The notes under the pieces: model-generated
The model's input: the letters and a program-made list of their open reading frames with translations, nothing else
What the model was told of the DNA's origin: nothing
Databases searched by the model: none
Position numbers and translations under genes: made by a program
Shown here: positions 43,104 to 59,715 of the stretch, one piece after another
Position numbering within the stretch: the stretch's first letter is position 1
How the letters are laid out: every line of letters begins with the position of its first letter
Assembly: GCF_027257955.1 (NCBI RefSeq)
Contig: NZ_JANZNQ010000002.1
Span: 186,001 to 250,000, forward strand
Source: Zhongshania aquatica
Lineage (GTDB): Bacteria; Pseudomonadota; Gammaproteobacteria; Pseudomonadales; Spongiibacteraceae
Reading direction: 5' to 3'
DNA length: 64,000 nt

Positions 43104-44657
43104 TCAGGCGATAGGCGGATATTTCTCCGCCATCATCACCCGAATATCCTTCTTCAAAACCTTGCCAGTTGGGTTACGAGGCAGAGCGGCAATGTACTCT
43201 ACTTTGCGAGGAATCTTGTAACCCGCAAGTTTGCCACGACAAAATTTCGTCAACTCTTCCGCGCTAAGCTCTGGCTGACCACCAGACACAAGTACCGCAA
43301 GAGGTATCTCTCCCCACTTTTGATCGGGCACACCGATAACAGACACGTCTTGAATCTGTTCATGAGACATTAATAAATTCTCAATTTCAGCAGGATAAAT
43401 ATTCTCACCACCAGAGATGATCATATCCTTAACGCGATCTTGAATATAAATGTAGCCTTCTTCATCCATACGCCCAGCATCGCCGGTATGCAGCCAACCA
43501 TCGACCACTGTTTTGGCTGTCGCTTCTGGATTCTTCCAGTAGCCCTGCATCACCTGTGGACCTTTGGCAACGATTTCGCCAATTTCCCCCAAGGGCAACT
43601 CATGGCCATCGTTACCAACAATCCGTATCTCAGTACCAAACACCGCGCGACCGCATGAGCGCAATAACTCAGGACGTCCCGCTAATGCCATTTTATGATC
43701 TTCGGCAGTGAGAAAGGTTAAGCCCATGGTCGACTCTGTTTGACCATAGCCTTGAACGAAGTCACAGCCAAACGCGTCCATACACTGCTGTAATAATGAT
43801 TCTGAGATAGGTGACGCACCATAGTTGATCGTATGCAGCTCAGAAAAATCGTAGTCCTTAATATTGGCAACCATCGCCAAAGAAAACTGCAGCATGACCG
43901 GAATAACCGCCACGGTGTTTATGTGCTCTTTCGCAAGGGTTTCAATCATGCCCACCGGATCGTAATCACGATGAATAATCAACGAACTGCCATAGATGAC
44001 GCCCATTAGCGACCCGACTAAACCGACCGCGTGAAAAGTGGGCGCTATTACTAAAGAGCGCTCGCCAACACGGGCGCCAACACCTGTCGTCATCGGCGCT
44101 TGATAAGTATTGGCCAGTACATTGTAGTGACTAATAAGTACACCCTTGGGCAAACCGGTAGTACCGCTGGTATACATCTGAAATAGGGTATCGTCGCCAC
44201 TTATCTCGACTTCATTCAAGGTCGCGGTGTCAGACAGCCAGCTATCTAATTTTGGCGCACTGCTATCGCTATCAATACAAACACAGGTTTTTGAACGCAA
44301 ATATTCGCCGCGAAGACCATCAAACTCTTGGTCAAAAAACAACATCTGCACATTCGCATTACTGGCAATAAACTCAACTTCGGTAGGTACCAGACGATAG
44401 TTCAATCCAACAACGACCGCACCAATACGCGCGCAAGCGAGGAAGAGGCACAAATTATCCACCGAGTTTTTAGCCAATACCGCCACTCGATCGCCTTTTG
44501 CGATACCGCTGCTTTGAATGTTCGCAGCAATGACATTGATATAGTCCCAAGCCTCAGCATAAGTCAGCGATTTTTTACCGTCACTGGCCATCATTATGTG
44601 GCCGCGAATACCCGCATGAAACTTAGTATGATCGTTCAAATTATTAAATAGCTTCAT
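43104..44657 (-). CDS. AMP-dependent acyl-CoA ligase of the beta-oxidation cluster
   Basis: A 517-residue ANL ligase. Motifs are YTSGTTGLPKGVLISH, GYGQTE, GWLHTGD, DRVKDMIISGGENIYPAEIE and the C-terminal PRNPTGKVLKKD with the catalytic Lys. It is the last gene of a minus-strand set with acyl-CoA dehydrogenases, an SDR and a FadB-like protein, so it should activate the substrate acid of that pathway. It resembles FadD3/LvaE-like ligases for short or ring-derived acids; the actual acid is unknown. Confidence 0.92.
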   Translation of the reverse strand: MKLFNNLNDHTKFHAGIRGHIMMASDGKKSLTYAEAWDYINVIAANIQSSGIAKGDRVAVLAKNSVDNLCLFLACARIGAVVVGLNYRLVPTEVEFIASNANVQMLFFDQEFDGLRGEYLRSKTCVCIDSDSSAPKLDSWLSDTATLNEVEISGDDTLFQMYTSGTTGLPKGVLISHYNVLANTYQAPMTTGVGARVGERSLVIAPTFHAVGLVGSLMGVIYGSSLIIHRDYDPVGMIETLAKEHINTVAVIPVMLQFSLAMVANIKDYDFSELHTINYGASPISESLLQQCMDAFGCDFVQGYGQTESTMGLTFLTAEDHKMALAGRPELLRSCGRAVFGTEIRIVGNDGHELPLGEIGEIVAKGPQVMQGYWKNPEATAKTVVDGWLHTGDAGRMDEEGYIYIQDRVKDMIISGGENIYPAEIENLLMSHEQIQDVSVIGVPDQKWGEIPLAVLVSGGQPELSAEELTKFCRGKLAGYKIPRKVEYIAALPRNPTGKVLKKDIRVMMAEKYPPIA

Positions 44658-44697: not shown

Positions 44698-45831
44698 TTA
44701 AAGATATCGCATGTCGCTAAAGCGACGACGATGGATATCTGAACCACCAAAATACATATCAATCATCATTAAACGCTTCAAATAATGACCGATGGGCATT
44801 TCGTTCGTTACCCCCATACCACCATGTAATTGCACCGCTTCTTCAGCAATTTTTCGGCCGTACTTACCGACCATCGCTTTCAGTACGGCGACGTCTTGGC
44901 TGCGCTCCTCGCTACCATCCAATATAGCGCATTGTGCTCTAACGAGCAGAGAACGACATTGTTCGGTGGCCATGAACATATCGACCATACGATGCTGTAG
45001 CGCTTGAAAGCTACCAATAGTCACACCAAACTGCTTACGCGTATTGGCGTACTCAGCGGTTGCTTTATACAGATAAGTCATCGCACCTACTGCCTCTGCG
45101 CACAATGCCACTAGGGCTTCGTCAACTACTTCGGCGATCAAGGGATACGCATCTCCCTCTTGGGTCAACATATCAGCTTGGTCTATAACTAGATCGGTAA
45201 ATTGAATATTACAGGCGTGCTGTCCATCCATTAAACGAACTGTTTCTATCTTCAGTGCGGGATTAGTCGCATCTACAACAAACAAGCTAATACCAGACTC
45301 ACTATTCACATCACCGGAGCTACGTGCCGCCACAATAAAGTGGCTGGCTTTGGCGTTGAGTACTAATTTTTTCTCACCGCTTAGATGATAACTATCACCT
45401 TTTTTACTTGCCGTAGTACTGACGTGACTTAATGAAAAACTGCTTTGCGCCTCTAGCCATGCAAAACTGTACTGGGCTTCACCAGATATTACAGTCGGCA
45501 TTGCGCGGCTTTTAAGGTCGTCGTTTGTTGAGCGCGCAATTAGTTGGCCCGCCAGCACAATCGATGACCAATAGGGTTCAACAACAAGGACTTGACCAAA
45601 CTCCTCCATAACCGCCGATACATCAGCAACGTTGCCGCCGAAGCCGCCGTCAGCCTCGGAAAAAGGAATAGTTAACCAGCCTAACTCAGAGAACGTCGCC
45701 CAGTGTTCAGCGCTATATCCGGCCTCATTTTTTACGATGGCTTCTCTTTGCTCCGGCGCATAATTGTCTGCCAGAAATTTTGCCACGCTGTCTTTCAGCA
45801 TGACTTGTTCTTCAGTTAATGAAAAATCCAT
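44698..45831 (-). CDS. Acyl-CoA dehydrogenase, first of a pair
   Basis: A 377-residue FAD-dependent dehydrogenase with the N-terminal helical, middle beta (VDATNPALKIE) and C-terminal helical domains. The C-terminal stretch reads EEAVQLHGGMGVTNEMPIG and then YFGGSDIHRR, so the position of the classical catalytic Glu (YEGT) is Gly. It is 11 bases from a second dehydrogenase gene; paired genes of this kind often encode heterotetrameric enzymes that act on bulky or branched acyl-CoAs. Whether this subunit is catalytic is unclear. Confidence 0.9.
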   Translation of the reverse strand: MDFSLTEEQVMLKDSVAKFLADNYAPEQREAIVKNEAGYSAEHWATFSELGWLTIPFSEADGGFGGNVADVSAVMEEFGQVLVVEPYWSSIVLAGQLIARSTNDDLKSRAMPTVISGEAQYSFAWLEAQSSFSLSHVSTTASKKGDSYHLSGEKKLVLNAKASHFIVAARSSGDVNSESGISLFVVDATNPALKIETVRLMDGQHACNIQFTDLVIDQADMLTQEGDAYPLIAEVVDEALVALCAEAVGAMTYLYKATAEYANTRKQFGVTIGSFQALQHRMVDMFMATEQCRSLLVRAQCAILDGSEERSQDVAVLKAMVGKYGRKIAEEAVQLHGGMGVTNEMPIGHYLKRLMMIDMYFGGSDIHRRRFSDMRYL

Positions 45832-45842
45832 TCTTAAGCCCC

Positions 45843-47024
45843 CTAGCGCGCTTGTAGACCGAGCGCGAATTTAGCAATGATGTTGCGCTGTACTTCGTTA
45901 CTGCCGCCAAAAATGGTGCAGGCCCGGCCAAACATATACTCACGTCGCGCTTTATTACCGTCGCTTTCCCACAATTCATCGTCGGCATCAGGCGATATTC
46001 CTCCGAATCCTGCGGCAACATCCCACTGCAGAGACTGAACAGCTTGCTGCATTTCAGTGCCCTTTAATTTGAGCAATGACGACTCCATACCCGGCGCACC
46101 GCCGCTATCGATAGCGCTTAATACTCTAAGTTCTAAAAACTCTAGCGCCATTACTTCCATTTCCACGTCGGCTAGGCGCCCACGAAAATCGCTATCATCA
46201 ATTAAGCGAGACCCACTTGCAGACACCTGACTTGCTAATTGGCGAATATGGGTCAATTTACGTTTGCAATATCCCACACCAGACAATGCCGTGCGCTCGT
46301 AGGTCAGTAAGGCTTTGGCGTAAGTCCAACCCTCATTTTCATCGCCAATGCGATTTGCCACAGGCACCCGCACATTCTCAAAATTCACTTCATTTAAATG
46401 GTGCTCATCATCCACAGAAATGATCGGTGACACTGTGATACCCGGCGATTTCATGTCGATGAGTAAAAAGGAAATTCCCTGCTGCGGCTTGCCGGTATTG
46501 TCAGTGCGGACAAGGCAGAATATCCAATCAGCGTATTGCGCAAACGTCGTCCAGATTTTTGTACCATCAATAATATAATCATCGCCATCACGCACCGCGC
46601 GGGTTTGTAAGGCGGCAAGATCCGAGCCAGCACCCGGTTCGGAATAGCCTTGGCACCACCAGATATCTGAAGATTTGGTTATAGGAAGAAAACGCGCCTT
46701 TTGTTCTTCTGAGCCATAGCTGTACAAAACTGGCGCCACCATTTTTATACCCATCGGCACCACATCAGGAGCACCAGCCGCGGCCAATTCGGTGGTGTAA
46801 ATATACTTTTGGGTTGCACTCCAACCCGTACCACCATGTTCGACTGGCCAGCCATTGGCAGCCCAACCTTTGCCATCAAGTAGCTTTTGCCACTCGACGC
46901 TAGCATCGCGAAAAGTTTTAGGATGATGAATACGGGCGGCAAGATCTGGAGTGAAGTTGTCGCGCATAAATCCGCGAACTTCTTCCTGAAATGCCAATTC
47001 CTCAGGGCTGAATTTTGCGTGCAT
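45843..47024 (-). CDS. Acyl-CoA dehydrogenase, second of a pair
   Basis: A 393-residue dehydrogenase. FAD/substrate segments are clear: WWCQGYSEPGAGSDLA, GTKIWTTFAQYADW and GMESSLLKLKGTEMQQ. The C-terminal end reads IFGGSNEVQRNII, again without Glu in the classical place. ATG 47024 (MHAKFSPEELAF) has AAGAGAA upstream and is preferred over 47057. It probably forms a complex with the product of the next gene and introduces a double bond in an acyl-CoA. Confidence 0.92.
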   Translation of the reverse strand: MHAKFSPEELAFQEEVRGFMRDNFTPDLAARIHHPKTFRDASVEWQKLLDGKGWAANGWPVEHGGTGWSATQKYIYTTELAAAGAPDVVPMGIKMVAPVLYSYGSEEQKARFLPITKSSDIWWCQGYSEPGAGSDLAALQTRAVRDGDDYIIDGTKIWTTFAQYADWIFCLVRTDNTGKPQQGISFLLIDMKSPGITVSPIISVDDEHHLNEVNFENVRVPVANRIGDENEGWTYAKALLTYERTALSGVGYCKRKLTHIRQLASQVSASGSRLIDDSDFRGRLADVEMEVMALEFLELRVLSAIDSGGAPGMESSLLKLKGTEMQQAVQSLQWDVAAGFGGISPDADDELWESDGNKARREYMFGRACTIFGGSNEVQRNIIAKFALGLQAR

Positions 47025-47128
47025 ACGGGTTCTCTTCTTATGTGATATCAAATGCAAATCAAAGCGTCAAAACTCGGCAGCGAGTCAAATCAACTCGCTG
47101 CCGACACCAAATCAAAATACCTCGCGTA

Positions 47129-47905
47129 TCAACGAGGCTGCATACGAATGGCACCATCAAGCCGAATACACTCGCCGTTCAAATACTCATTCTCCGCCAT
47201 CATTACTGACAAGTGGGCGATCTCGTCCGGACGACCTAAGCGCTGAGGATTAACGACGCTGGCCTCCAAGGATTTGTAAGCCACTTCAGACAGTGTTTCG
47301 AATAACGGTGTGTGGATAAGACCTGGAACAATGGTATTAACTCGAATACCGTAAGACGCTAAATCCCGCGCCATTGGCAAGGTCATACCTACTACACCGC
47401 CTTTAGATGCACTGTAAGCAACCTGACCAACTTGACCTTCATACGCCGCAACAGACGCCGTATTAATAATGACACCGCGCGCATTAGCACCATCATAAGG
47501 CTCGTTTTTGGCCATTTGCTCAGCGACAAGACGGGCCACATTGAATGTGCCTATCAAATTAACATTGATGACGGTTTTGTAGGCATCCAATGGGAAAGCA
47601 CCTTGCTTGCCCAGTGTTTTCATCGCATTGCCGATGCCTGCATAGTTATTACAAATATGTATGGCGCCGAACTTCGCCATAACCTCTGCAATAGCCTTAA
47701 CTACAGAGTCTTCGTCCGCCACATTCACATGGTGAAAGCTAACGTTTTCCGTACCCAGCTCCGCAACGATGGCATTGCCACGCTCGTCATTCATATCAAA
47801 AATCGCAACTTTGCCGCCCTTGGCAACATAGGCGCGCACAGTGCCTTCACCTAAGCCTGACGCGCCACCAGTAACAACCGCTACTTTTCCATTAATATCC
47901 ATCAC
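47129..47905 (-). CDS. SDR-family 3-hydroxyacyl-CoA dehydrogenase-like protein
   Basis: A 258-residue short-chain dehydrogenase. It has TGGASGLGEG (NAD binding, residues 12-21), NYAG at 87-90, and the catalytic Ser151, Tyr164 and Lys168 (YSASK). The sequence is close to the HSD10/type II 3-hydroxyacyl-CoA dehydrogenases, so it should oxidise a 3-hydroxyacyl-CoA. It lies between acyl-CoA dehydrogenase genes in one transcript, with a gap of 14 bases to the preceding gene. The first of two consecutive ATGs is used here. Confidence 0.92.
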   Translation of the reverse strand: MMDINGKVAVVTGGASGLGEGTVRAYVAKGGKVAIFDMNDERGNAIVAELGTENVSFHHVNVADEDSVVKAIAEVMAKFGAIHICNNYAGIGNAMKTLGKQGAFPLDAYKTVINVNLIGTFNVARLVAEQMAKNEPYDGANARGVIINTASVAAYEGQVGQVAYSASKGGVVGMTLPMARDLASYGIRVNTIVPGLIHTPLFETLSEVAYKSLEASVVNPQRLGRPDEIAHLSVMMAENEYLNGECIRLDGAIRMQPR

Positions 47906-47919
47906 TAATTTCCTATAAA

Positions 47920-49086
47920 TTATTCAAAGAACGAGACAAATTTATCCGAGTACAAATCGCGACCGATAATTAATTTCATGATTTCTGAACTACCGGCAAA
48001 GATTCGAGTAATACGTGCATCGGTGTACATACGGCTAATCGGATATTCATCCATAAAGCCTGCGCCCCCGTGAAGCTGAACACCTTCATCAACCATTTTG
48101 CAGAGTAACTCACTGGTATAAAGTTTGGCCTTGGCAGCGTCCTCAGAGGTCAGCAAACCCGCATTATGAGCAACCACACATTGATCAACATAGGCCTGGG
48201 CAACGTCGATTTCGGTGCGTAAATCTGCCATTTTGAATTCAGTGTTTTGCATTTTAGACAGCGGCTTACCGAAGACTTTACGCTCCATAGTAAATTCGCG
48301 AGTCACTTCAAAAGCGCGATGCGCTCCGGACAAGAACCCACACGCACCAATCAAGCGCTCTTCCGCCAAGCCTTCCATCAGATAGATGAAACCCTTAGTG
48401 GCATCGCCCAATACATTCTCTTTTGGAATACGAACATCTTTAAAAAACAGCTCAGCAGTATCCTGCGCCTTCATACCCATTTTCTTAAGATTGCGTCCGC
48501 GCTCAAAGCCTTCCATGCCACGCTCAACCAAAAACAAACCCACTGCATAGGGATTATTTTCAGGATCAGTTTTCGCCGCAACAATCACCACGTCTGAATT
48601 AATACCATTGGTAATATAGGTTTTTGTGCCATTCAATAACCAGTGATCGCCCATGTCTTTGGCATTTGCACGCATACCCGCCAAGTCCGAGCCAGCATCA
48701 GGCTCCGTCATAGCAATCGCAAGAATCGTTTCACCGCTTGCGCACTTGGGGAGAAAACGCGCCTTCTGCTCGTCATTACCGAAACGATTAATATAAGGAC
48801 CGACCAAACGGCTGTGTAAGGTATTCGCCCAATCACCGCCGTGAATCCGGCTGGTTTCCTCAATGATTATCTGTTCAAAACGAAAATCCGTTTCGCCCAT
48901 GCCGCCGTATTGCTCTTCCGGCCAAATCATCAAAAATCCTTGCTCACCCGCTTTGGTAAATGCCTCGCGATCGACAATGCCCTGTTCGCGCCAACGCTCT
49001 AAATTTGGCTGAATCTCTTGCTCCAAAAACTTGCGGTAGGCGGAGCGAAACATGTTTTGTTCTTCAGTAAAATTACGCGGCAACAT
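47920..49086 (-). CDS. Acyl-CoA dehydrogenase, LCAD-like
   Basis: A 388-residue dehydrogenase. FAD-binding AMTEPDAGSDLAGM and GTKTYITNG are present, and the end reads RIFAGSSEIMKLIIGRDL as in long-chain types. In these the catalytic Glu lies in the middle helix, here in LAEERLIGACGF. ATG 49086 with GGAG ten bases before gives the standard length; the frame extends to a GTG at 49110. It could act on long-chain acyl-CoA, or on a chain intermediate different from that of the paired enzyme downstream. Confidence 0.92.
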   Translation of the reverse strand: MLPRNFTEEQNMFRSAYRKFLEQEIQPNLERWREQGIVDREAFTKAGEQGFLMIWPEEQYGGMGETDFRFEQIIIEETSRIHGGDWANTLHSRLVGPYINRFGNDEQKARFLPKCASGETILAIAMTEPDAGSDLAGMRANAKDMGDHWLLNGTKTYITNGINSDVVIVAAKTDPENNPYAVGLFLVERGMEGFERGRNLKKMGMKAQDTAELFFKDVRIPKENVLGDATKGFIYLMEGLAEERLIGACGFLSGAHRAFEVTREFTMERKVFGKPLSKMQNTEFKMADLRTEIDVAQAYVDQCVVAHNAGLLTSEDAAKAKLYTSELLCKMVDEGVQLHGGAGFMDEYPISRMYTDARITRIFAGSSEIMKLIIGRDLYSDKFVSFFE

Positions 49087-49173
49087 AGTGAATGTACTCC
49101 GGTTCAGCACTTATATTTACGAAGTTCACCATAATATGGTCGTAAAAATTAGGCTTTGTTTTGCATTTAATTC

Positions 49174-49217: not shown

Positions 49218-51365
49218 TTATGCGAATAATTCGCCATCAGACGCTTTTTTCAGCAACAAGGCCGGTGGTGTAAACCGCTCGCCATACTTAGCGCTCAATT
49301 CTGTCGCTCGGTCGACAAACTTCTGCAGCCCATAGGTGTTGATGTACTGAAACACGCCGCCGGTATAGGGAGGAAAGCCAATACCCATAATTGAACCGAT
49401 GTTGCCATCGGCAACTGATTTCAATACACCCTCTTCCAAGCAGCGAACCGATTCAATTACCTGCCTAAACAAAATACGCTCTTTAATGTCCTGGTTAGGA
49501 ATAGCAACATCAGTCTTCGCAAAACGCTCGTGAATGGCTGGCCAAAGGGTTTTACTGCCATCAGCCGCGTAATCGTAGTAGCCACCTTCGTAGGCTTTAC
49601 CGTTACGCTGGTATTCCTCAACAAATATCTTTGACATACGAGCCGTTGCGGTGTCGACACTCATATTGTCGCCAAGACGCTCATTAAGCTCTCGGTTGGT
49701 TGCGACTATTTTTGTAGTCAACTGCTGACTAACTTCATCGTGAACAGCCAAGGGACCAACAGGCATACCAACTAATTTAGCTAGATTCTCAATCAGTACT
49801 GGCTCAACACCCTCTTCAATTAGGATCGCGCCTTCATCGATAAAGGTGCCAAATACCCGCGAAGTAAAGAAGCCGCGAGAGTCATTTACAACAATCGGTG
49901 TTTTCTTAATTTGCTGAGAATAATCAAAGGCCTTAGCCAATGTTTCGGCTGAAGTTTTATCGCCCACAATAATTTCAACCAATGGCATCTTATCTACCGG
50001 AGAGAAGAAATGAATCCCAATGAAATTTTCTGGCTTAGCTGACGCTTCTGACAGCAAAGTAATGGGAAGCGTTGACGTATTTGACCCCCAAACGCCACCC
50101 TCGGCCAGCAATGGCTCAAGCTCTTTGGTCATCGCGTGTTTAAGATCAACACTTTCAAACACCGCTTCAATAATTAAATCGCAGCCCTGCAAGTCATTAG
50201 CATCCACGGTTGCGGTAATGCGGCCAAGAATGTCGGCTTTCTTTTCTTCGCTCATACGGCCGCGACTGATTGCCTTGCTCAGCAACTTATCTGTGTATGC
50301 TTTACCTTTATCTGCGGCATCTTGGCTAATATCCTTAAGCACCACATCAATACCCGCGCGCGCAGACACATAGGCAATACCCTGGCCCATCATACCGGCA
50401 CCCAAAATACCGACCTTCTTAACTTTGCTTTTCGAAATATCTTTCGGGCGACTGCCACCGCCATTGACCTGATTCATCTGCAAAAAGAACGTCATCATAT
50501 TCTTAGCTTGTGGCGTGGTGACCAAGCTGGTCAACGCGCGACTTTCAATCCGCAGCGCAGTGTCAAAATCGACCCGTAGGGTGTTCGCGATAACATCTAG
50601 AATTTTTTCCGGCGCGGGCATCAAACCTTTAGTTTTTTGCGCCAGCATTGGCACTGCGCCCTGAATCATTTGAGCAATGTTTGGTTTGCGCAAGTCACCG
50701 CCAGGAATTTTAAACCCTTTGATATCCCATGGATTCGCGGCCTCAGGATTTGCTAAAATCCACGCTGTTGCCTTAGCCATCATGTCGTCTGTATCTGTGG
50801 CCAACTCTTCAACCAAACCGAACGCGGCAGCCTTCTCTGCATTAAAACGCGTGCCCTCTAGTAAAGGCATAATGGCTTTCTCAACACCCATTTTGCTAAC
50901 TAAACGGACAACACCCCCGCCACCAGGTAAAAGTCCTAAACTCACTTCTGGCAAACCAATTGCAACCGCAGGCGCGTTCAAAGCCACCCGATAATGACAG
51001 GCTAAACAAATCTCATAACCGCCACCTAACGCCGCGCCATTAATTGCCGCGACTACGGGTTTGCCCAATTTTTCTAAGCGTCGCAACAAACTTTTAATAG
51101 ACTCTGTTTGCGCAAACAAGGCGGGTTCATCAACACCCGGCACTGCCTTAAGCATATTCTTAATATCACCACCAGCAAAAAACGAGCTTTTCGCAGAGGT
51201 TAAAATAACACCTGCAATGCTCTCACGCTCGCCCTCTAAACGTTCGACGGTAGAACTCATTAACTCGATGTATTCATCGTTCATGGCGTTAACCGGACCA
51301 CTCATATCCATGGTCACTGTAACGATATTCTTGCTGTCTTTTACGTAATTAAATGTTCCACTCAT
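49218..51365 (-). CDS. Bifunctional enoyl-CoA hydratase / 3-hydroxyacyl-CoA dehydrogenase (FadB/FadJ type)
   Basis: A 715-residue trifunctional-alpha-like protein. Residues about 1-200 are the crotonase domain (AGGDIKNM, ALGGGYEICLACHYR, PEVSLGLLPGGGG). Residues about 315-500 are the NAD-binding domain (GILGAGMMGQGIAY), followed by the C-terminal dehydrogenase domains (GIHFFSPVDKMPLVEII). It does the hydration and oxidation steps of beta-oxidation. It lies 84 bases downstream of the thiolase gene, so both subunits of the complex are made together. Confidence 0.95.
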   Translation of the reverse strand: MSGTFNYVKDSKNIVTVTMDMSGPVNAMNDEYIELMSSTVERLEGERESIAGVILTSAKSSFFAGGDIKNMLKAVPGVDEPALFAQTESIKSLLRRLEKLGKPVVAAINGAALGGGYEICLACHYRVALNAPAVAIGLPEVSLGLLPGGGGVVRLVSKMGVEKAIMPLLEGTRFNAEKAAAFGLVEELATDTDDMMAKATAWILANPEAANPWDIKGFKIPGGDLRKPNIAQMIQGAVPMLAQKTKGLMPAPEKILDVIANTLRVDFDTALRIESRALTSLVTTPQAKNMMTFFLQMNQVNGGGSRPKDISKSKVKKVGILGAGMMGQGIAYVSARAGIDVVLKDISQDAADKGKAYTDKLLSKAISRGRMSEEKKADILGRITATVDANDLQGCDLIIEAVFESVDLKHAMTKELEPLLAEGGVWGSNTSTLPITLLSEASAKPENFIGIHFFSPVDKMPLVEIIVGDKTSAETLAKAFDYSQQIKKTPIVVNDSRGFFTSRVFGTFIDEGAILIEEGVEPVLIENLAKLVGMPVGPLAVHDEVSQQLTTKIVATNRELNERLGDNMSVDTATARMSKIFVEEYQRNGKAYEGGYYDYAADGSKTLWPAIHERFAKTDVAIPNQDIKERILFRQVIESVRCLEEGVLKSVADGNIGSIMGIGFPPYTGGVFQYINTYGLQKFVDRATELSAKYGERFTPPALLLKKASDGELFA

Positions 51366-51449: not shown

Positions 51450-52658
51450 TCAAACCCGCTCAATAATGGTCGCGATACCCATGCCGCCGCCGACACATAA
51501 GGTGATCAAACCAAAGCGCAAATTGCGGCGCTCAAGCTCATCTAGGCAAGTACCAACCAACATGGCGCCGGTCGCACCAAGTGGATGCCCCATCGCAATA
51601 GCGCCACCGTTGACGTTAATTTTTTCATCGGGAACACCGGTTTCTTTTTGGAAACGCATTACGACAGAGGCAAACGCTTCGTTCACTTCAAACAAATCGA
51701 TATCGTCAATGGACATGCCCGCTTTTTCTAGAACCTTCCAAGTAGCGGGAGCAGGCCCAGTCAACATAATCGTTGGCTCTGTACTGGTAACTGCTGTGGC
51801 AACAACACGGCCGCGCGCTGTTAAACCCAGCTCTTTACCAATTTTCTCGCTACCAATAAGTACCGCAGACGCACCATCAACAATACCCGATGAATTACCT
51901 GGGGTATGGATATGATGAATTTTGGCAACTTGGGGATACTTGCTAATTGCAATATCGTCAAAGCCTAAGGAACCGTGAAACTCAAACGACGCCTTTAAAC
52001 GACCCAAGCCTTCTAGCGTGCTATCTGGCTTGATGAACTCATCGCGCTCAAGAATCGTCACGCCATTTCCATCTTTAACCGGCATTACCGATTTATCGAA
52101 ATAACCTGCTGCTCTTGCTGCAGCCGCCTTCTGCTGTGAACGAAGCGCAAACTTATCAACATCTTCGCGGCTAAAATCTGCCAAGGTTGCGATCAAGTCT
52201 GCGCCAACACCCTGCGGTACAAAGGCACTATCAAAAGCAGTCTGCGGATCTTCACCCCAAGCGCCACCGTTGCTACCCATTGGCACACGTGACATACACT
52301 CAACACCACCAGCAACAACCAGATCTTCCCAACCTGAAGCCACTTTTTGAGCCGCTAGGTTTACTGCCTCTAATCCCGATGCGCAAAAACGATCTAACTG
52401 AAAACCCGCAACGCGCTCATCCCAGCCCGCTTTCAATAGGGCTGTTTTAGCAATACATGAGCCCTGCTCACCAATGGGAGTAACACATCCCATAATGACG
52501 TCATCGACTTTGCTAGTATCAAGATTGTGCCTGTCGCGAAGACCGTTAAGTAAACCGGCAAGAAGATCTACCGGCTTCACCTCATGTAGCGAACCGTCTT
52601 TTTTACCCTTGCCGCGCGGCGTGCGAACTGCGTCGTAGATGTAAGCTGTATTAGCCAT
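51450..52658 (-). CDS. Acetyl-CoA acyltransferase (thiolase)
   Basis: A 402-residue thiolase for the final cleavage of beta-oxidation. The nucleophilic Cys is in [11 protein letters not shown], His in [14 protein letters not shown] and the second Cys in TLCVGGGMG. It is the first gene of the operon. The region in front is shared with the divergent AraC-type regulator, which suggests direct control. Confidence 0.95.
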
Positions 52659-52851: not shown

Positions 52852-53886
52852 ATGGAAAACAGAACCATCTCAATCGCTTTTATACGCAATATGGTATCCG
52901 GCTGCGGCCTAGCAAAGCGCTACTGCGATGAATTACTGGAACGCGCCGGTATAGACCCGAAAACGATCAATAGTCAAAGAGCGAGGGTCACCCCAACCCA
53001 ACTTTCTCAACTGAACAAGTGGATTACCGACGCCACCGGCGATGAGGGCATGGGACATTATCCGCAGCCCCAAAAACACGGTACATTCCACGCTCTAGCT
53101 CACTACCAACAAACCGCTGCTGACTTAGAACAGGCCATAGAGCGCAATGTACGCTTTTATAATTTATTCGATTTTGGCTTTAGCTTGGCACTAATTCGTA
53201 GCGGCGATTATATAAGCTACCGACTACAAGCCGATCTTGGCCTGACCTTGACGGACTGGGTTTACGAACAGCACCTCATGATAAATCACCGCTTTTTATG
53301 CTGGCTCACCGGTAGCTCAATCCCCCTTCATCGCGTGAATTTAAATTACCCAGCACCAAGTCACAGCGGCGAATACCACTACCTATTCTTCAGCGATACC
53401 CGCTTTGCACAAGACCACAGTGAAATTGTGTTTCACCGTCAGTACCTCAGCCTGCCCATTATTCGCTCCACTGCCGAGCTAGACGACTACCTGTCTCGAG
53501 TACCCAGCGAGTTTCTCCACATTCCAAATCAAGGAAGCAGCTACACCGAGCAAATAAGGCGTATCATTCGAAAATCTTTACCGGAAATACCGAGCTATGA
53601 AGACATGGCCCAATCTCTTGGCCTAACGCCGCAAACTCTCCGCCGACGACTACGGCAAGAGGGCTGTGATTACAGATTGATCAAAAATGAACTAATAAGA
53701 GATACCGCGATTGGCTATTTGTTACACGACAATCGGGAGATAAAAACGATTTCGTATCAACTTGGCTTCTCAGAGCCCAGCGCATTTATCCGCTCATTTA
53801 AAAAGTGGACTGGCGTGACCCCGCACCAATATCGCGACAATCATAGCCTGGGTGTTGATTCATCGAAAAGCGGTGCTAGAGCTTAA
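52852..53886 (+). CDS. AraC-family regulator next to the beta-oxidation operon
   Basis: A 344-residue regulator of the OruR type: an N-terminal arabinose-binding-like domain (about 20-200) and two complete C-terminal helix-turn-helix motifs (MAQSLGLTPQTLRRRLRQEGCDY and YQLGFSEPSAFIRSFKKWTGVTPHQYR). It is divergent from the thiolase gene with 193 bases between, so it probably switches the beta-oxidation operon in response to its substrate or CoA ester. Confidence 0.93.
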   Translation: MENRTISIAFIRNMVSGCGLAKRYCDELLERAGIDPKTINSQRARVTPTQLSQLNKWITDATGDEGMGHYPQPQKHGTFHALAHYQQTAADLEQAIERNVRFYNLFDFGFSLALIRSGDYISYRLQADLGLTLTDWVYEQHLMINHRFLCWLTGSSIPLHRVNLNYPAPSHSGEYHYLFFSDTRFAQDHSEIVFHRQYLSLPIIRSTAELDDYLSRVPSEFLHIPNQGSSYTEQIRRIIRKSLPEIPSYEDMAQSLGLTPQTLRRRLRQEGCDYRLIKNELIRDTAIGYLLHDNREIKTISYQLGFSEPSAFIRSFKKWTGVTPHQYRDNHSLGVDSSKSGARA

Positions 53887-54485: not shown

Positions 54486-54890
54486 CTAAACATCAACGTG
54501 CTTTAAGTAACTGGCATAACGCGGATTATCTATCGCCATTTTTGCGACGGCAATTCGTTCTAAAGCCGCAAGTAAATCATCTTCTCTCGATATATCATCG
54601 CTGCGGATGCGGTCTAGCAGTCGTTGATTTACATCCGTACTTTCAGAGGCGGAGCTTTTAGGATCAGTGCTTTCGACATCACAACCTAGATACTCACTTA
54701 ATACCAAGTGCTCTAAATGCCTAAAACCCTCGCCCAACTCAGACTCACGCGCGATAATTCCCAAGACATTCATCGCTATTTTCAATTTGTATTTTAATCC
54801 GTCATTCGCCACTGCAGGCGTGACTTCGCGCTCTAAAAATTCCTGTAGTGCTTCGCATAATTGACTGACATTGGGCTGATTGACTGGCAT
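54486..54890 (-). CDS. DUF6285 protein, LvaB-like
   Basis: A 134-residue helical protein. This family regularly stands next to an APH-type kinase and an acyl-CoA dehydrogenase. In Pseudomonas putida the equivalent, LvaB, is needed with LvaA to phosphorylate 4-hydroxyacyl-CoA in levulinate catabolism. Conserved start features are ALQEFLEREVTPAV and YKLKIAMNVLGIIARE. ATG 54890 lies directly after the LvaA-like stop with GAGGGG at eight bases; a GTG at 54899 is in frame. It is the last gene of three. Confidence 0.8.
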   Translation of the reverse strand: MPVNQPNVSQLCEALQEFLEREVTPAVANDGLKYKLKIAMNVLGIIARESELGEGFRHLEHLVLSEYLGCDVESTDPKSSASESTDVNQRLLDRIRSDDISREDDLLAALERIAVAKMAIDNPRYASYLKHVDV

Positions 54891-54891
54891 T

Positions 54892-55911
54892 TTATTCACC
54901 CCTCAAAAGATCGAGAATATCTAGCTCACATTCTGAAACACGGCGGCCGATAGCCACCCGTTCCAGCGAGCGCTCACGGCCGCTCAAATGCATATCGCAT
55001 TGGTATAGGCAGATGACTCCCCATTTAAGCACACCGAACAATTCCCAGAATTTAACCGCCACAGGATCAACCTCTCTGCTGCTGGCGCGCTCATAGGCTT
55101 TATATAAACTGGCACGATCACCAAAGCCACCGACAGGCTTATCGATGCGACCGAATCGCCATGAATTTACACAGAGCCAGCCCAAGTCCTCCATCGGGTC
55201 GCCGATATGAGACAGCTCCCAGTCGAGCACGGCACGAATGCCGTCTTCGCCCACCATTAAATTACCGTTGCGAAAGTCACCATGTACCAAGGTTTCCTCG
55301 GTGCAAGACGGAATATGTTCAGCAAGCCAACGGAAAGCGTATTCGAATACTGGTAGGGCTTGCTGATAACTCCGGTAGGCTTTCAGATAGAATTCAATCT
55401 GATCTGCTGCCAAGGCGTGATGTAGTCCCGACAAAGCATCTAAGGGCACGGCGTGAATGGCCGCCAAAATATCACCGCACTGCCCCGCCATCTCTTCGCG
55501 CGCCTGTGCGTAGCGTGGATCTTTTATTATTTTTTGTGGCAACGTCTCCCCTGCAATCGCTCGCATCAAAAACCCTTCGCCTAAGCCGTCCCCAGTTTGC
55601 AACTCAGTTATTATCTCCGGCGCAGGTACTCCGGCATCAAATGCCGCACCTATCACCTTAGCCTCAGCCGACTTACTAAGTGCACCACCGAACTGGCTGG
55701 CGTCGTGACCGCGACGAAGAATGAGCGCCTGTTCACTCCGAGAACTAAGGGCCGTAAAAATCCAAGTCTGGGCGGCAGCACCGCCCGTCAACCTTCGCAA
55801 ACCTTGAATACTAACGGGCTCATCCCACAGATTGGTGAGTACACTTTCTAGAGGTGTTTTTAAATGCTCAGGCGAATGGTCTTCCCCCTTCTCTGCTGAT
55901 GCCGCGCTCAC
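54892..55911 (-). CDS. APH-family kinase, LvaA-like (ACAD10/11 kinase type)
   Basis: A 339-residue phosphotransferase of the aminoglycoside-kinase fold. Catalytic segment VHGDFRNGNLMV and metal-binding VLDWELSHIGDPMEDLGWL are intact, as is the N-terminal LTGGAAAQTWIF loop. In this gene setting it should phosphorylate the 4-hydroxyl of a hydroxyacyl-CoA, as LvaA and the kinase domain of human ACAD10/11 do. It is not an antibiotic-resistance gene. The GTG start overlaps the stop of the dehydrogenase gene (GTGA). Confidence 0.88.
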   Translation of the reverse strand: MSAASAEKGEDHSPEHLKTPLESVLTNLWDEPVSIQGLRRLTGGAAAQTWIFTALSSRSEQALILRRGHDASQFGGALSKSAEAKVIGAAFDAGVPAPEIITELQTGDGLGEGFLMRAIAGETLPQKIIKDPRYAQAREEMAGQCGDILAAIHAVPLDALSGLHHALAADQIEFYLKAYRSYQQALPVFEYAFRWLAEHIPSCTEETLVHGDFRNGNLMVGEDGIRAVLDWELSHIGDPMEDLGWLCVNSWRFGRIDKPVGGFGDRASLYKAYERASSREVDPVAVKFWELFGVLKWGVICLYQCDMHLSGRERSLERVAIGRRVSECELDILDLLRGE

Positions 55912-57122
55912 AAATCACCCGCCCACTCTTCGTCACGCTCACCAAAATCCCAGCCTAGACCATTATCCCGATAGCGTTTTAACACCTGCTTTGCCACCGA
56001 TTGGATATGCACTTCATCTGGGCCGTCATATATGCGAGCCTCACGGGCATGACGATACATCCGACTCAATGGCGTGTCGTCGGTTAAACCGGCCGCGCCA
56101 TATACCTGAATTGCTCGATCCACCACGTTATGAAGCATTCGCGCACCGACAACTTTAATAGCGCCAATTTCGACCCGCGCGGCATCACCGCTATCTATAC
56201 AACGGGCGGCATGCAAAGTGAGCTGCCGACACGCTTGAATTTCAGCAAGACTATCAAACACATGCTGCTGCATGAGTTGCTTATCCGCGAGACTAGAACC
56301 AAAGGCACTGCGGTTGTGCAGCCGCTCACACATTAAATCGAAGGCCCGCTGGGCCTGCCCCAGCCAACGCATGCAGTGAAAAATTCGCCCTGGCCCTAGG
56401 CGTCGTTGGGCAATCACAAAACCCTCTCCGCGACCGCCGAGAAGGTGATGTTCCGGCACGCGAATATCCTTATATTTAACCTCAAAATGACCGCCACTCA
56501 TGCCTAGAAGCGGCGTATCTCTCACTATCTCGTAGCCCACACTGTCGGTGGGTACAAGAATCATACTAAAGGCTTTGTGGTCCGGCGCATCGGGCTCGGT
56601 ACGACACATAATGGTGGTGTAAGCAGCAATATCCGCCCCCGTGGTAAACCACTTGTGGCCATTTATTCGCCACATGCCCTCTTTAAGCACCGCGCTGGTT
56701 TGTAATTGAGTAGGGTCTGAACTCGCTAGGGCAGGCTCAGTCATCGCAAAGCTCGGACAAATTTCGCCGGCCACTAAAGGCTTTAAATACTGCTCTTGCT
56801 GCTGTGGTGATGCGTATTGTTTGAGCATCAGCGAGTCTTGCAGTGAATAGGTGCCAAACACCCTTTGCGCATACTCAGATCGACCAATTACTTCATTGAT
56901 ATACACATAATCGAGAAAGGGCATACCCTGCCCGCCGATGTCTTTCGGGTGCCCCAAAGCCCAGAGTCCCTCGGCTTTGGCGGCGGTCATCAATTCCGCC
57001 AGCTTTGCCTCGGAGGCAGCTTTCTCTGCTCCCTGCAATACCGCTTCTGCAGGGTATATACGCTGCTCCAAAAATTCCTTAGTTCGTTGACGCACCCCAA
57101 ACCACGCTGCCGATCCGCTCAC
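55908..57122 (-). CDS. Acyl-CoA dehydrogenase, LvaC-like (ACAD10/11 type)
   Basis: A 404-residue acyl-CoA-dehydrogenase-fold protein. It has FAMTEPALASSDPTQL, GHKWFTTGADI and a C-terminal AARIYDGPDEVH-like stretch (seen as REARIYDGPDEVHIQ) typical of ACAD10/11 and LvaC. Those enzymes remove phosphate from 4-phosphoacyl-CoA to give the enoyl-CoA and do not carry out net oxidation. It starts at GTG with GGAG seven bases before. First gene of the three-gene module, with a promoter region shared with the divergent VOC gene. Confidence 0.88.
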   Translation of the reverse strand: MSGSAAWFGVRQRTKEFLEQRIYPAEAVLQGAEKAASEAKLAELMTAAKAEGLWALGHPKDIGGQGMPFLDYVYINEVIGRSEYAQRVFGTYSLQDSLMLKQYASPQQQEQYLKPLVAGEICPSFAMTEPALASSDPTQLQTSAVLKEGMWRINGHKWFTTGADIAAYTTIMCRTEPDAPDHKAFSMILVPTDSVGYEIVRDTPLLGMSGGHFEVKYKDIRVPEHHLLGGRGEGFVIAQRRLGPGRIFHCMRWLGQAQRAFDLMCERLHNRSAFGSSLADKQLMQQHVFDSLAEIQACRQLTLHAARCIDSGDAARVEIGAIKVVGARMLHNVVDRAIQVYGAAGLTDDTPLSRMYRHAREARIYDGPDEVHIQSVAKQVLKRYRDNGLGWDFGERDEEWAGDL

Positions 57123-57192
57123 GACACACTCCTATTTTTATGATTATGACCGTCGACAATACAAACAAGACGCCTTTTTATTGTCAAGTAAA

Positions 57193-57220
57193 TTGACTTT
57201 ATATATGATAACCATATTAT
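57193..57220 (+). promoter_or_regulatory. Probable promoter of the VOC gene
   Basis: TTGACT (57193-57198) and TATTAT (57215-57220) with 16 bases between. The short inverted repeat GTCAA/TTGAC overlaps the -35. On the other strand TTGACA also occurs here (57186-57181), for the LvaC-like gene. Confidence 0.55.
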
Positions 57221-57276: not shown

Positions 57277-57840
57277 ATGACTTCATCATTAAAGCCATTA
57301 AACAATATTCATCATGCCGCCTATCGCTGTCGTGATGCCGAGCAAACACGCTGGTTTTACGAAGACATACTAGGACTAAAATTAGCAGCAGCCTTTGAAG
57401 AAGACATCGACTTTGGCGAAGGTCTTGGTCGCAACCGCAATTTTTTGCATATTTTCTTTGAAATGGGAGACGGCAACTATTTAGCTTTCTTCGACGAACC
57501 CGGCATTTCAAAAGAAGCGGATTTTAGCCGTAAAGACAGTTTCGATATGCATTTGGCGCTGGAAGCGGAAAGCATGGACGACTTGTTAGCCTGGCACAAA
57601 CGCATTAACGACGCGGGAAAAACCTGCCTTGGCCCGGTGGATCACGGTTTTGTTCACTCGGTCTATATGTACGACCCCAACGGCATACAGGTCGAAATTA
57701 CCTGCCGTGCGAAAGACCCGTCACTAATGCAACAGCACACCGACGACGCGAGGAGCTCTTTGGCAGCGTGGACCGAAAAAACTCGTCCACTCAAAGAAGA
57801 AACCTTTGGTGCAGCTAAAATTGATAAACGCGCCCGCTAA
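57277..57840 (+). CDS. VOC-superfamily (glyoxalase/extradiol dioxygenase-like) protein
   Basis: A 187-residue vicinal-oxygen-chelate protein. NIHHAAYRCRDAEQTRWFYEDILGL begins the first beta-alpha-beta module, with a metal-ligand His. The second module holds HGFVHSVYMYDPNGIQVEI, with Glu in the usual ligand position. It may be an isomerase, lyase or ring-cleavage enzyme; sequence alone does not decide. It is divergent from the LvaC-like gene and followed by the convergent MarR gene, so it could belong to the same catabolic theme. Confidence 0.85.
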   Translation: MTSSLKPLNNIHHAAYRCRDAEQTRWFYEDILGLKLAAAFEEDIDFGEGLGRNRNFLHIFFEMGDGNYLAFFDEPGISKEADFSRKDSFDMHLALEAESMDDLLAWHKRINDAGKTCLGPVDHGFVHSVYMYDPNGIQVEITCRAKDPSLMQQHTDDARSSLAAWTEKTRPLKEETFGAAKIDKRAR

Positions 57841-57870: not shown

Positions 57871-58323
57871 TTAGACCGGCGGCACAACCACAATTGGTCC
57901 CCAGCCTTTACTGAGCGCCTGCTTCAATTGCTTTAACTGCGCCTTGCCAATGCGGTTACCGAGTTCGTCTTCTATACCAATAATCGCTTTTTCAGCGTCT
58001 TGACGAATTCTGTCAGCGGCGCTACTAAACTGAACAATTTTAGCCCGTCGGTCATCGGGGTCTGGCACTAGCTCCAGTAATCCGTCGTCTTTCATGCCCT
58101 GTAGTAGCTGATGAATAGCCTGCCGGCTGACACCTAAATTACGGGCCAAAAAAGCAGGACGGTTAATACCCACGGTAACGCTGATCATAATCATCGACTT
58201 GGTGCGATTCATCCGCTCCCAGCCCGCGGCCTCAAGACTCGCCTGCAGACTCTCATCCATCCAAAACAGGGCATAGGCTAAGGTGCCAATTAAAAAGTCC
58301 TGATGCTCGGCTATTTTTTTCAT
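57871..58323 (-). CDS. MarR-family transcriptional regulator
   Basis: A 150-residue winged-helix regulator. The DNA-binding helix region reads PAFLARNLGVSRQAIHQLLQGMKDDGLLEL, with the wing PDPDDRRAKIV. It is divergent from the alpha/beta hydrolase gene with 222 bases between and probably controls that gene and itself. The ligand is unknown. Confidence 0.92.
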   Translation of the reverse strand: MKKIAEHQDFLIGTLAYALFWMDESLQASLEAAGWERMNRTKSMIMISVTVGINRPAFLARNLGVSRQAIHQLLQGMKDDGLLELVPDPDDRRAKIVQFSSAADRIRQDAEKAIIGIEDELGNRIGKAQLKQLKQALSKGWGPIVVVPPV

Positions 58324-58545: not shown

Positions 58546-59715
58546 ATGACTAATAAGAAAAAAGCCTACGAGCGCGTACCCTATTTAATTTTCTATCAGG
58601 ACAAAAGCCCGTTTAAAGAAACCTACGGCGGTCCGATGGACTTTGGCGCACTTAAGTCGCACCTGCTGCGCCCAGCAGAGCCAAAAACCAATAATGTTAT
58701 TGTGTTTATGCACCCCGTGGGCGGCGGCGAATACCTGCCCATGATTACCGAGCTGGCTAAAGCTGGCTATCCCGTTATTTACTGCCAGAGCCGCTACCCC
58801 GGCAACGATACCGCCTTAATCATGGAGAAGGTCGTCATTGACCTTGGCAACTGCATTCGTCACGCCAAAGAGAAATTCGGCTTCAACAAGGTTATTTTGG
58901 CGGGCTGGAGTGGCGGTGGCTCGCTGTCGATGTTCTACCAAAGTCAGGCCGAGAACCCCACTATCACCGAAACACCCGCTGGTGATGCTGTGGATCTAAC
59001 AATACAAGGTTTAATTCCCGCCGACGGTATTATGATGTTGGCCGCCCACATTAGCCGCACACATACCTTAACGGAGTGGATGGACGCCTCTGTTCTAGAC
59101 GAGCAAGACCCAAGCCAGCGCGATCCTGAACTCGATCTATACAATCCGCAAAACCCCAATCAGCCGCCCTATTCCGCCGCATTTTTAGCACGCTATCGAG
59201 CAGCCCAAATTGCCCGCAATCGCAAAATTACGGCGTGGGTTAAAAACAAGCTTGCAGATTTAAAAGACAGCTGCCGCCCGAATGATGAATTCGCCTTTGT
59301 AGTACATGGCACGATGGCCGATCCTCGCTGGCTGGACCCCACCATCGATGCCAATGACCGTAAGCCGCGCTGGTGTTACCTAGGCGATCCTGAGGTGGTC
59401 AATAATGGCCCCGTCGGACTTGCTCGCTTTTGCACGCTGCGTAGCTGGCTGTCACAATGGAGTTACGACGACTCCAATGCCGACGGCTTACGCTGCGCAC
59501 AGGCCATTACCGTACCCGCTTTGGTTATTGGTAATAGCGCCGATGACGCCTGCACGCCGAGCCACACCACGCGGATATTTGACGCCATCGCCCACGACAA
59601 CAAGGAAATGCACGAGATTAAGGGCGCCACACATTATTATTTCGGCCAAGAAGCACAGCTAAAAGAAGCGATTCATCTCTGTGGCGACTGGCTGGCACGA
59701 AAGGATTTGCTATAA
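58546..59715 (+). CDS. Alpha/beta-hydrolase
   Basis: A 389-residue hydrolase without signal peptide. The nucleophile elbow is GWSGGGS (Ser around residue 125). An acidic residue in NSADDACTPSH and His in GATHYYFGQE complete a plausible triad. An insert of about 100 residues between strands 6 and 7 (DASVLDEQDPSQRD... to NKLADLKDSC) forms a lid. Probable ester or lactone substrate, possibly induced through the divergent MarR gene. It ends eight bases from the convergent rnk gene. Confidence 0.88.
   Translation: MTNKKKAYERVPYLIFYQDKSPFKETYGGPMDFGALKSHLLRPAEPKTNNVIVFMHPVGGGEYLPMITELAKAGYPVIYCQSRYPGNDTALIMEKVVIDLGNCIRHAKEKFGFNKVILAGWSGGGSLSMFYQSQAENPTITETPAGDAVDLTIQGLIPADGIMMLAAHISRTHTLTEWMDASVLDEQDPSQRDPELDLYNPQNPNQPPYSAAFLARYRAAQIARNRKITAWVKNKLADLKDSCRPNDEFAFVVHGTMADPRWLDPTIDANDRKPRWCYLGDPEVVNNGPVGLARFCTLRSWLSQWSYDDSNADGLRCAQAITVPALVIGNSADDACTPSHTTRIFDAIAHDNKEMHEIKGATHYYFGQEAQLKEAIHLCGDWLARKDLL

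Follow-up and report, generated by a model that had tools for sequence, protein, structure and literature searches.

The window analysed here is a stretch of 64,000 nucleotides from Zhongshania aquatica, in which three genes on the minus strand encode a protein with the fold of an acyl-CoA dehydrogenase (ACAD) of the ACAD10/11 superfamily, an APH-fold kinase and a small protein of the DUF6285 family (PF19802) (Table 1). The first-pass annotation of this DNA had described the trio as tightly packed and ordered C-A-B in the nomenclature of the levulinate genes lvaA, lvaB and lvaC, and both points are upheld by the open reading frames (ORFs), which overlap by 4 bases (dehydrogenase/kinase) and 8 bases (kinase/DUF6285), by the order of transcription on the minus strand and by the Pfam assignments. 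The dehydrogenase matches the Acyl-CoA_dh_1, M and N domains, with 138.7 bits for the C-terminal one, the kinase matches APH (113.3 bits, cut-off 23.2) and the small protein matches DUF6285 (58.7 bits, cut-off 28.1). Among PDB sequences the closest relatives of the dehydrogenase are chains of ACAD11 (E 3.5e-75), the kinase matches 3dxp and the kinase domain of ACAD11, and for DUF6285 a sequence search among solved structures returned nothing better than E 0.25. NCBIfam provides no model for the DUF6285 protein at E 0.001 and none above cut-off for the other two. The DUF6285 ORF is annotated with a GTG start, and its true start may be the ATG at 54890, as in the proteins of several congeners; it is the only DUF6285 match in the genome (4.49 Mb, 107 contigs). 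We propose from sequence comparison, with a probability of about 0.72, that the trio is a hydroxyacyl-CoA dehydroxylation module that represents a third lineage beside LvaABC and ACAD10/11, and that it is not a levulinate operon.

According to the available parts of PMC11342911 and PMC12440821, ordinary beta-oxidation is largely unable to handle 4-hydroxy acids, and enzymes able to open such acids were described from bacteria in 2017 and from mammals in 2024-2025. The available text of PMC12440821 describes the 4-phosphate in mouse ACAD11 as bound by R626, H634 and R637 and the base as D753; replacement of the three phosphate ligands by Ala/Leu, or of the Asp by Asn, abolished activity. Residues R241, H249, C250, M251, R252 and D366 of the window dehydrogenase align with R626, the HCMR motif at 634-637 and D753 of the mouse enzyme, and it thus carries ACAD11-specific residues together with an Asp at the position of the usual Glu base. 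The H.MR motif was found in none of the 11 other ACADs of one alignment. Because the dehydrogenase has the phosphate-elimination residues of ACAD11, a kinase and an eliminase for 4-hydroxyacyl-CoA are the best reading of the two larger proteins.

The fairest test of conservation is given by 11 trio loci (L176-L186) for which the kinase, and not the motif, was the search key; in these the adjacent dehydrogenase reads HCMR in nine cases and HAMR in two. A larger set of 96 ORFs of the window-type clade was chosen by the HxMR motif and contains it by construction (L030 and L190 of this set are one contig fetched twice); RLGP is present upstream in all 96, HCMR in 90, HAMR in six and the Asp base in 94. 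L087, one of the two outside the Asp count, also reads DG, and the other, L105, ends before the base at the end of its contig. Just before the HCMR histidine the window clade has F (L094 has Y), ACAD10/11 has H and LvaC has T.

Phylogenetic analysis was carried out with LvaABC represented by an lva-type operon (L194) and its relatives L195 and L196, in place of the Pseudomonas putida KT2440 genes. The dehydrogenase tree has 66 rows, and the 55 of the superfamily (ACAD10/11, LvaC and window type) split from the 11 other ACADs on a branch with support 96/97. Window-type dehydrogenases form a clade of 37 rows (100/99). Apart from it stand the 11 rows of LvaC type (83/62) and a group of six rows of ACAD10/11 type (100/100); a seventh row of the latter type, L004, has a long branch and is placed next to the window clade. 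When all outgroups are included the window clade comes out as sister to ACAD10/11 (99/97), and approximately unbiased (AU) tests rejected a clade of window type plus LvaC (p 0.007) and one of ACAD10/11 plus LvaC (p 0.009); with two reduced outgroups the former p rose to 0.18 and 0.06, and support for the sister relationship was weaker. The 57 rows of the kinase tree were taken from the fetched loci only, which are not an unbiased sample of kinases, and they divide into 51, LvaA included, and six of ACAD10/11 type (100/100). Each of the 51 is accompanied by DUF6285, be it fused, adjacent or no more than 6 kb away; five of the six have none within 6 kb, and the sixth, L050_2267, has one nearby that is itself adjacent to a second kinase. 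LvaA-type kinases form a clade of 12 rows (100/100) that does not include the window kinase, and forcing it into this clade was rejected (AU p 8.0e-6). The window kinase is on the LvaA side of its tree, and the dehydrogenase tends towards ACAD10/11 in its own.

Genome contigs were scanned with the peptides INGHKWF and IFHCMRW, which gave at least 596 stretches, at least 582 of them relatives; the best 80 of these were retained. These best 80 loci come from SAR86, Nonomuraea, Planomonospora, Actinomadura and other actinomycetes, and from metagenome-assembled genomes (MAGs) named as Myxococcota/Deltaproteobacteria, Acidobacteria, Chloroflexi and alpha- and gammaproteobacteria. One MAG titled Klebsiella pneumoniae (L091) encodes, together with a kinase and a DUF6285 protein, a clade dehydrogenase that groups with rows from Halieaceae and actinobacteria, and its title looks mistaken. 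SAR86 genomes of 1.1-1.4 Mb behind two of the loci (L043 and L035; L238-L246) have kept several dehydrogenases of the ACAD10/11 superfamily, a surprising load for genomes so small; in one of them, G331, we read one window-type and two IHHCMR-type enzymes plus a relative that lacks the H.MR motif.

The association of DUF6285 with the kinase extends well beyond the window. We found 43 ORFs in which APH is followed by DUF6285 in a single chain with a linker of 9-33 aa (38 by hand count, after removal of five fetched twice). A structural model of one such fusion (L212) is confident overall (pLDDT 92, pTM 0.90) and its DUF6285 part is helical, and the window DUF6285 protein modelled alone also folds into helices (pLDDT 88.7, pTM 0.74). 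A kinase lies within 4.5 kb of the dehydrogenase in 45 of the best 80 clade loci, accompanied by DUF6285 in 36, and 35 have no kinase at this distance. For 26 of these 35 the whole genome was tested, and 25 of the 26 encode DUF6285, located in L050 about 5 kb from the clade dehydrogenase; 20 of the 30 DUF6285 places listed for these genomes sit in frames of at least 471 aa, and at those loci that were read such frames are fusions with a kinase. LvaB was pulled down with LvaA according to the available text of PMC6692424, and it is also named in the part of PMC9399607 that is accessible. Together with the fusions and the recurrent pairing, the pulldown suggests that DUF6285 is a subunit of the kinase. 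DUF6285 is not named in the papers found by our search, which covered mostly literature outside subscription; within the same range the chemistry is known, and we did not meet the window lineage or a general kinase-DUF6285 pairing.

A kinase at least 50% identical to that of the window occurs in 10 of 17 congeners, and in all 10 it is found together with the DUF6285 protein and the dehydrogenase, and the same holds for one relative from a different genus within the family. The trio is thus not a chance cluster, since it has been kept together in the 10 congeners and in this more distant relative. Its surroundings are also partly retained (Table 1). Two congeners (L176 and L185) have PimC-like, PimD-like and ligase genes behind the trio on the same strand, another (L184) has the ligase and a fourth (L186) an SDR (short-chain dehydrogenase/reductase) and the ligase; in L177-L181 an AraC-thiolase block lies next door, as in the window, where the beta-oxidation cluster spans 43.1-52.7 kb. 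In distant taxa the most widely recurring neighbour families that can be named are SDR, ligase, hydratase and ACAD, and they give no hint of a particular substrate.

Table 1. Features of the window at and around the trio.
Feature	Position	Strand	Remarks
AMP-forming acyl-CoA ligase	43104-44657	-	relatives behind trio, same strand, in 4/10 congeners
PimD-like acyl-CoA dehydrogenase	44698-45831	-	351 bits, under NCBIfam cut-off 653
PimC-like acyl-CoA dehydrogenase	45843-47057	-	422 bits, under NCBIfam cut-off 624
SDR	47129-47905	-	83% identical to SDR directly behind trio in L186
FadE-type acyl-CoA dehydrogenase	47920-49110	-	without HCMR motif
FadB/FadJ-type hydratase / 3-hydroxyacyl-CoA dehydrogenase	49218-51365	-	
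Thiolase	51450-52658	-	
AraC-family regulator	52852-53886	+	between trio and beta-oxidation cluster
DUF6285 (PF19802) ORF	54486-54899	-	137 aa; family of LvaB; predicted kinase subunit, all-helical
APH-fold kinase ORF	54892-55911	-	339 aa; predicted 4-hydroxyacyl-CoA kinase; HGDFRNGN (D212) and DWE motifs
Dehydrogenase ORF	55908-57122	-	404 aa; ACAD10/11-superfamily acyl-CoA dehydrogenase fold; predicted 4-phosphoacyl-CoA eliminase
Dyad TTGTCAAGTAAATTGACTT	57181-57199		divergent promoter of trio and VOC gene
VOC/glyoxalase-superfamily protein	57277-57840	+	divergent from trio; near trio in 10/11 trio relatives
MarR-family regulator	57871-58323	-	near trio in 10/11 trio relatives
Alpha/beta hydrolase	58546-59715	+	389 aa; near trio in 11/11 trio relatives

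Gene order, residues, clades, the pairing and fusion of kinase and DUF6285 and the conserved neighbours can be read from the sequences themselves; we infer the two reactions, the site of the hydroxyl, what DUF6285 does, control by MarR and the substrate. The ligase would make the acyl-CoA, and the kinase, with DUF6285 as a subunit, would phosphorylate its 4-hydroxyl. In the dehydrogenase-fold flavoprotein D366 would then take the C2 proton, with R241, H249 and R252 holding the phosphate, and expulsion of the phosphate would yield a 2-enoyl-CoA that could enter ordinary beta-oxidation by way of the FadB-, thiolase- and PimC/PimD-like enzymes that are encoded with the ligase at 43-53 kb. The substrate is likely to be a 4-hydroxy acid other than that of the levulinate pathway, possibly a bulkier one, and the organism could plausibly use gamma-hydroxy acids or lactones. 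It is possible that the conserved alpha/beta hydrolase, for which no PDB sequence relative was found at E 0.01, is a lactonase or thioesterase. In one relative of the family (L183, 11528-12858) this hydrolase is split into two adjacent frames.

The dyad TTGTCAAGTAAATTGACTT in the divergent promoter is probably an operator of the MarR-family regulator. It overlaps promoter-like hexamers and is the only exact copy of its sequence in the genome, and neither TTGTCAAG nor TTGACTT varies between the window and the 10 congeners. At up to three mismatches the genome contains 42 matches to the dyad, as compared with 26 to the reversed pattern, and the window contains one, as compared with 0.63 expected; the weaker matches are thus near background, and the weight of the site therefore rests on its conservation. 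Contigs C13, C30 and C96 contain several TTGTCAAT-N3-ATTGAC dyads that differ from this operator by 2-3 mismatches and are possibly sites of another regulator.

Several observations weigh against assigning the trio to a 4-hydroxyacyl-CoA module. It cannot form one transcript with the beta-oxidation cluster in the window, because the AraC gene intervenes, and homology does not fix where the hydroxyl sits, since the kinase shares only 30-31% identity with LvaA. Six members of the clade have HAMR instead of HCMR, and the make-up of the clade is partly a product of the motif, since IFHCMRW was itself a scan pattern. DUF6285 kinases are also found near ACADs with a Glu base and no HCMR dehydrogenase in six loci of the tree set, and two congeners (L187 and L188) have a DUF6285 kinase (46% and 41% identical) that has no window-type dehydrogenase beside it. 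On a Cupriavidus pinatubonensis plasmid (L197) a kinase-DUF6285 pair stands in a row with an SDR, a thiolase and a gene of the indolepyruvate ferredoxin oxidoreductase family, and no ACAD is annotated within the 13 kb read, which argues that DUF6285 kinases are not confined to a 4-hydroxyacyl-CoA setting. Finally, in a sample of 293 genomes of the order, 48 have DUF6285 and 12 the clade dehydrogenase; the presence of DUF6285 in 11 of these 12, against 37 of the 281 others, speaks for the module, but the Fisher p of 8e-9 is too good, as eight of the 11 belong to the genus of the window and the association test is not independent.

The single exception among these 12 genomes (G251, contig C18, 11570-12739) has a TAG inside its dehydrogenase match, which may be decaying or may simply contain its end stop. 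The ACADs in the six Glu-base loci are distinct proteins of about 410-420 aa; the kinase is fused to DUF6285 in L169, L170, L188 and L192, and separate from it in L167 and L193.

The alternative that survives best retains the chemistry and moves it elsewhere on the molecule, such that the group phosphorylated and then eliminated would be the hydroxyl at C5, or a tertiary one at C3, of a branched or cyclic acyl-CoA. The F that precedes the HCMR histidine in place of the H or T of other lineages indicates that the pocket may differ, the dehydrogenase forms a clade of its own and PimC/PimD-like dehydrogenases are encoded nearby. However, the three phosphate-contact residues stand at the spacing of ACAD11, which fits a phosphate on C4, and we give this alternative a small share of the probability.

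A somewhat less likely alternative is that the trio is the organism's own levulinate/4-hydroxyvalerate pathway, a reordered LvaABC with the SDR and ligase encoded at 43-52 kb acting as LvaD and LvaE. The same three families are indeed present in both systems. In the L194 operon, found by a search of plasmids, the order is prpR (lvaR-like), APH, lvaB, ACAD, SDR, acyl-CoA synthetase, DUF485 and symporter, and the relatives of L194 come from Azotobacter and Stutzerimonas. The statement of the first-pass annotation that LvaB belongs to DUF6285 holds for all three lva operons, because their LvaB proteins match PF19802 (85.3, 73.5 and 77.0 bits for L194, L195 and L196); the LvaB of L194, the product of a gene named lvaB in the PLSDB table, matched no NCBIfam LvaB model at E 1. 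Moreover, an SDR and a ligase are found in the cluster and, in the congener L186, directly behind the trio.

For the kinase and the dehydrogenase the resemblance does not extend to orthology. The window proteins are 33-35% (dehydrogenase/LvaC), 30-31% (kinase/LvaA) and 26-31% (DUF6285/LvaB) identical to those of the three operons, and kinase and dehydrogenase fall outside the LvaA and LvaC clades, respectively, the former with an AU p of 8e-6. No LvaR- or transporter-like protein is present among the five neighbour proteins scanned with the trio. With LvaD the window SDR shares 25-27% identity, with LvaE the ligase shares 29%, and neither gene adjoins the trio; at such low identity they are not equivalents by descent, and their candidacy as LvaD/LvaE orthologues was rejected. 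The first-pass annotation had been right that LvaD/LvaE equivalents do not adjoin the trio, and its pointer to those of the cluster as lva counterparts did not hold. Its likening of the trio to LvaABC stands as far as the shared families, the phosphate-handling residues and a kinase of the DUF6285 side are concerned, and fails at the level of clades; it had named failure of the kinase and DUF6285 proteins to cluster with LvaA/LvaB as evidence against the likeness, and such failure is seen for the kinase among orthologues, not in the superfamily.

Better levulinate candidates than the window trio are likely to be found elsewhere in the genome, where two further HCMR dehydrogenases are accompanied by an APH kinase, a histidine phosphatase and an SDR (L174 on contig C10 and L175 on contig C52). 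These dehydrogenases are 36% (C10) and 40% (C52) identical to that of the window and group with ACAD11 in the tree, and the window kinase is 22% identical to both of their kinases. C10 is the better candidate for levulinate or another 4-hydroxy acid, because its SDR is 45-47% identical to LvaD. Judged by descent and context, levulinate is unlikely to be the substrate of the trio.

It is very unlikely that the trio serves the breakdown of steroids or bile acids. The genome has eight KshA_C matches, KshA_C occurs in all 12 genomes of the order with the dehydrogenase as against 80 of the 281 others, one member of the clade (L003) adjoins a KshA_C-type Rieske protein and, in the available part of PMC4810484, steroid genes are reported from three SAR86 draft genomes. 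However, KshA_C was found in only 13 of the 40 clade genomes tested (drawn from the best 80 loci), on which count steroids were rejected as the general substrate; it was found in none of eight SAR86 genomes, which is at odds with the accessible part of that SAR86 report, and Pfam recognised no steroid gene among 28 proteins of the window. That the dehydrogenase is an ordinary ACAD beside an APH kinase with an unrelated job is the least credible alternative, since, broad as the APH family is and although some DUF6285 kinases stand with conventional ACADs, the ACAD11-specific residues occur in the window and in all 11 kinase-found relatives, Asp replaces the Glu base and the DUF6285-kinase pairing is recurrent.

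The third-lineage reading can be extended, more tentatively. The window type might be a functionally distinct branch, widespread in marine and soil bacteria including SAR86, that opens hydroxylated acids handled neither by LvaABC nor by ACAD10/11, most likely branched or cyclic acids set free from lactones by the hydrolase, and DUF6285 might serve a whole branch of acyl-CoA hydroxyl kinases as their general C-terminal subunit, which would explain LvaB; we regard this whole extension as possible and rather doubtful. If there is indeed a third lineage, equipped with a conserved kinase subunit of its own, the chemistry of 4-hydroxy acids would extend to many more bacteria and DUF6285, and hence LvaB, would gain a testable role, and annotation by resemblance to Lva would point to the wrong substrate.

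In comparison with the known systems, the trio shares with the lva operon its three families, a DUF6285 gene beside the kinase gene and an HCMR dehydrogenase with an Asp base. In contrast, its genes are ordered C-A-B, its kinase and dehydrogenase belong to separate clades, its motif is IFHCMRW where that of LvaC is LTHCMRW, and it is surrounded by MarR, VOC and hydrolase genes rather than by genes for LvaR, LvaD, LvaE and a transporter. Mammalian ACAD10 and ACAD11, and the bacterial counterparts that stand with a histidine phosphatase, share with the window dehydrogenase HCMR and the equivalents of R626, R637 and D753, at 36-41% identity; their kinase belongs to another deep branch, no DUF6285 was found at the C10 and C52 clusters, and H precedes HCMR where the window clade has F. 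The available text of PMC11342911 gives identities to LvaC of 62% for ACAD10 and 56% for ACAD11, with which the 34% that we obtained between the LvaC of L194 and the ACAD11 domain is at odds. The fused APH-DUF6285 kinases (such as L063, L106, L212 and L170) have the same two domains in the same order as the window pair, in one chain instead of two, and several of them are encoded in genomes that also possess a dehydrogenase of the window clade.

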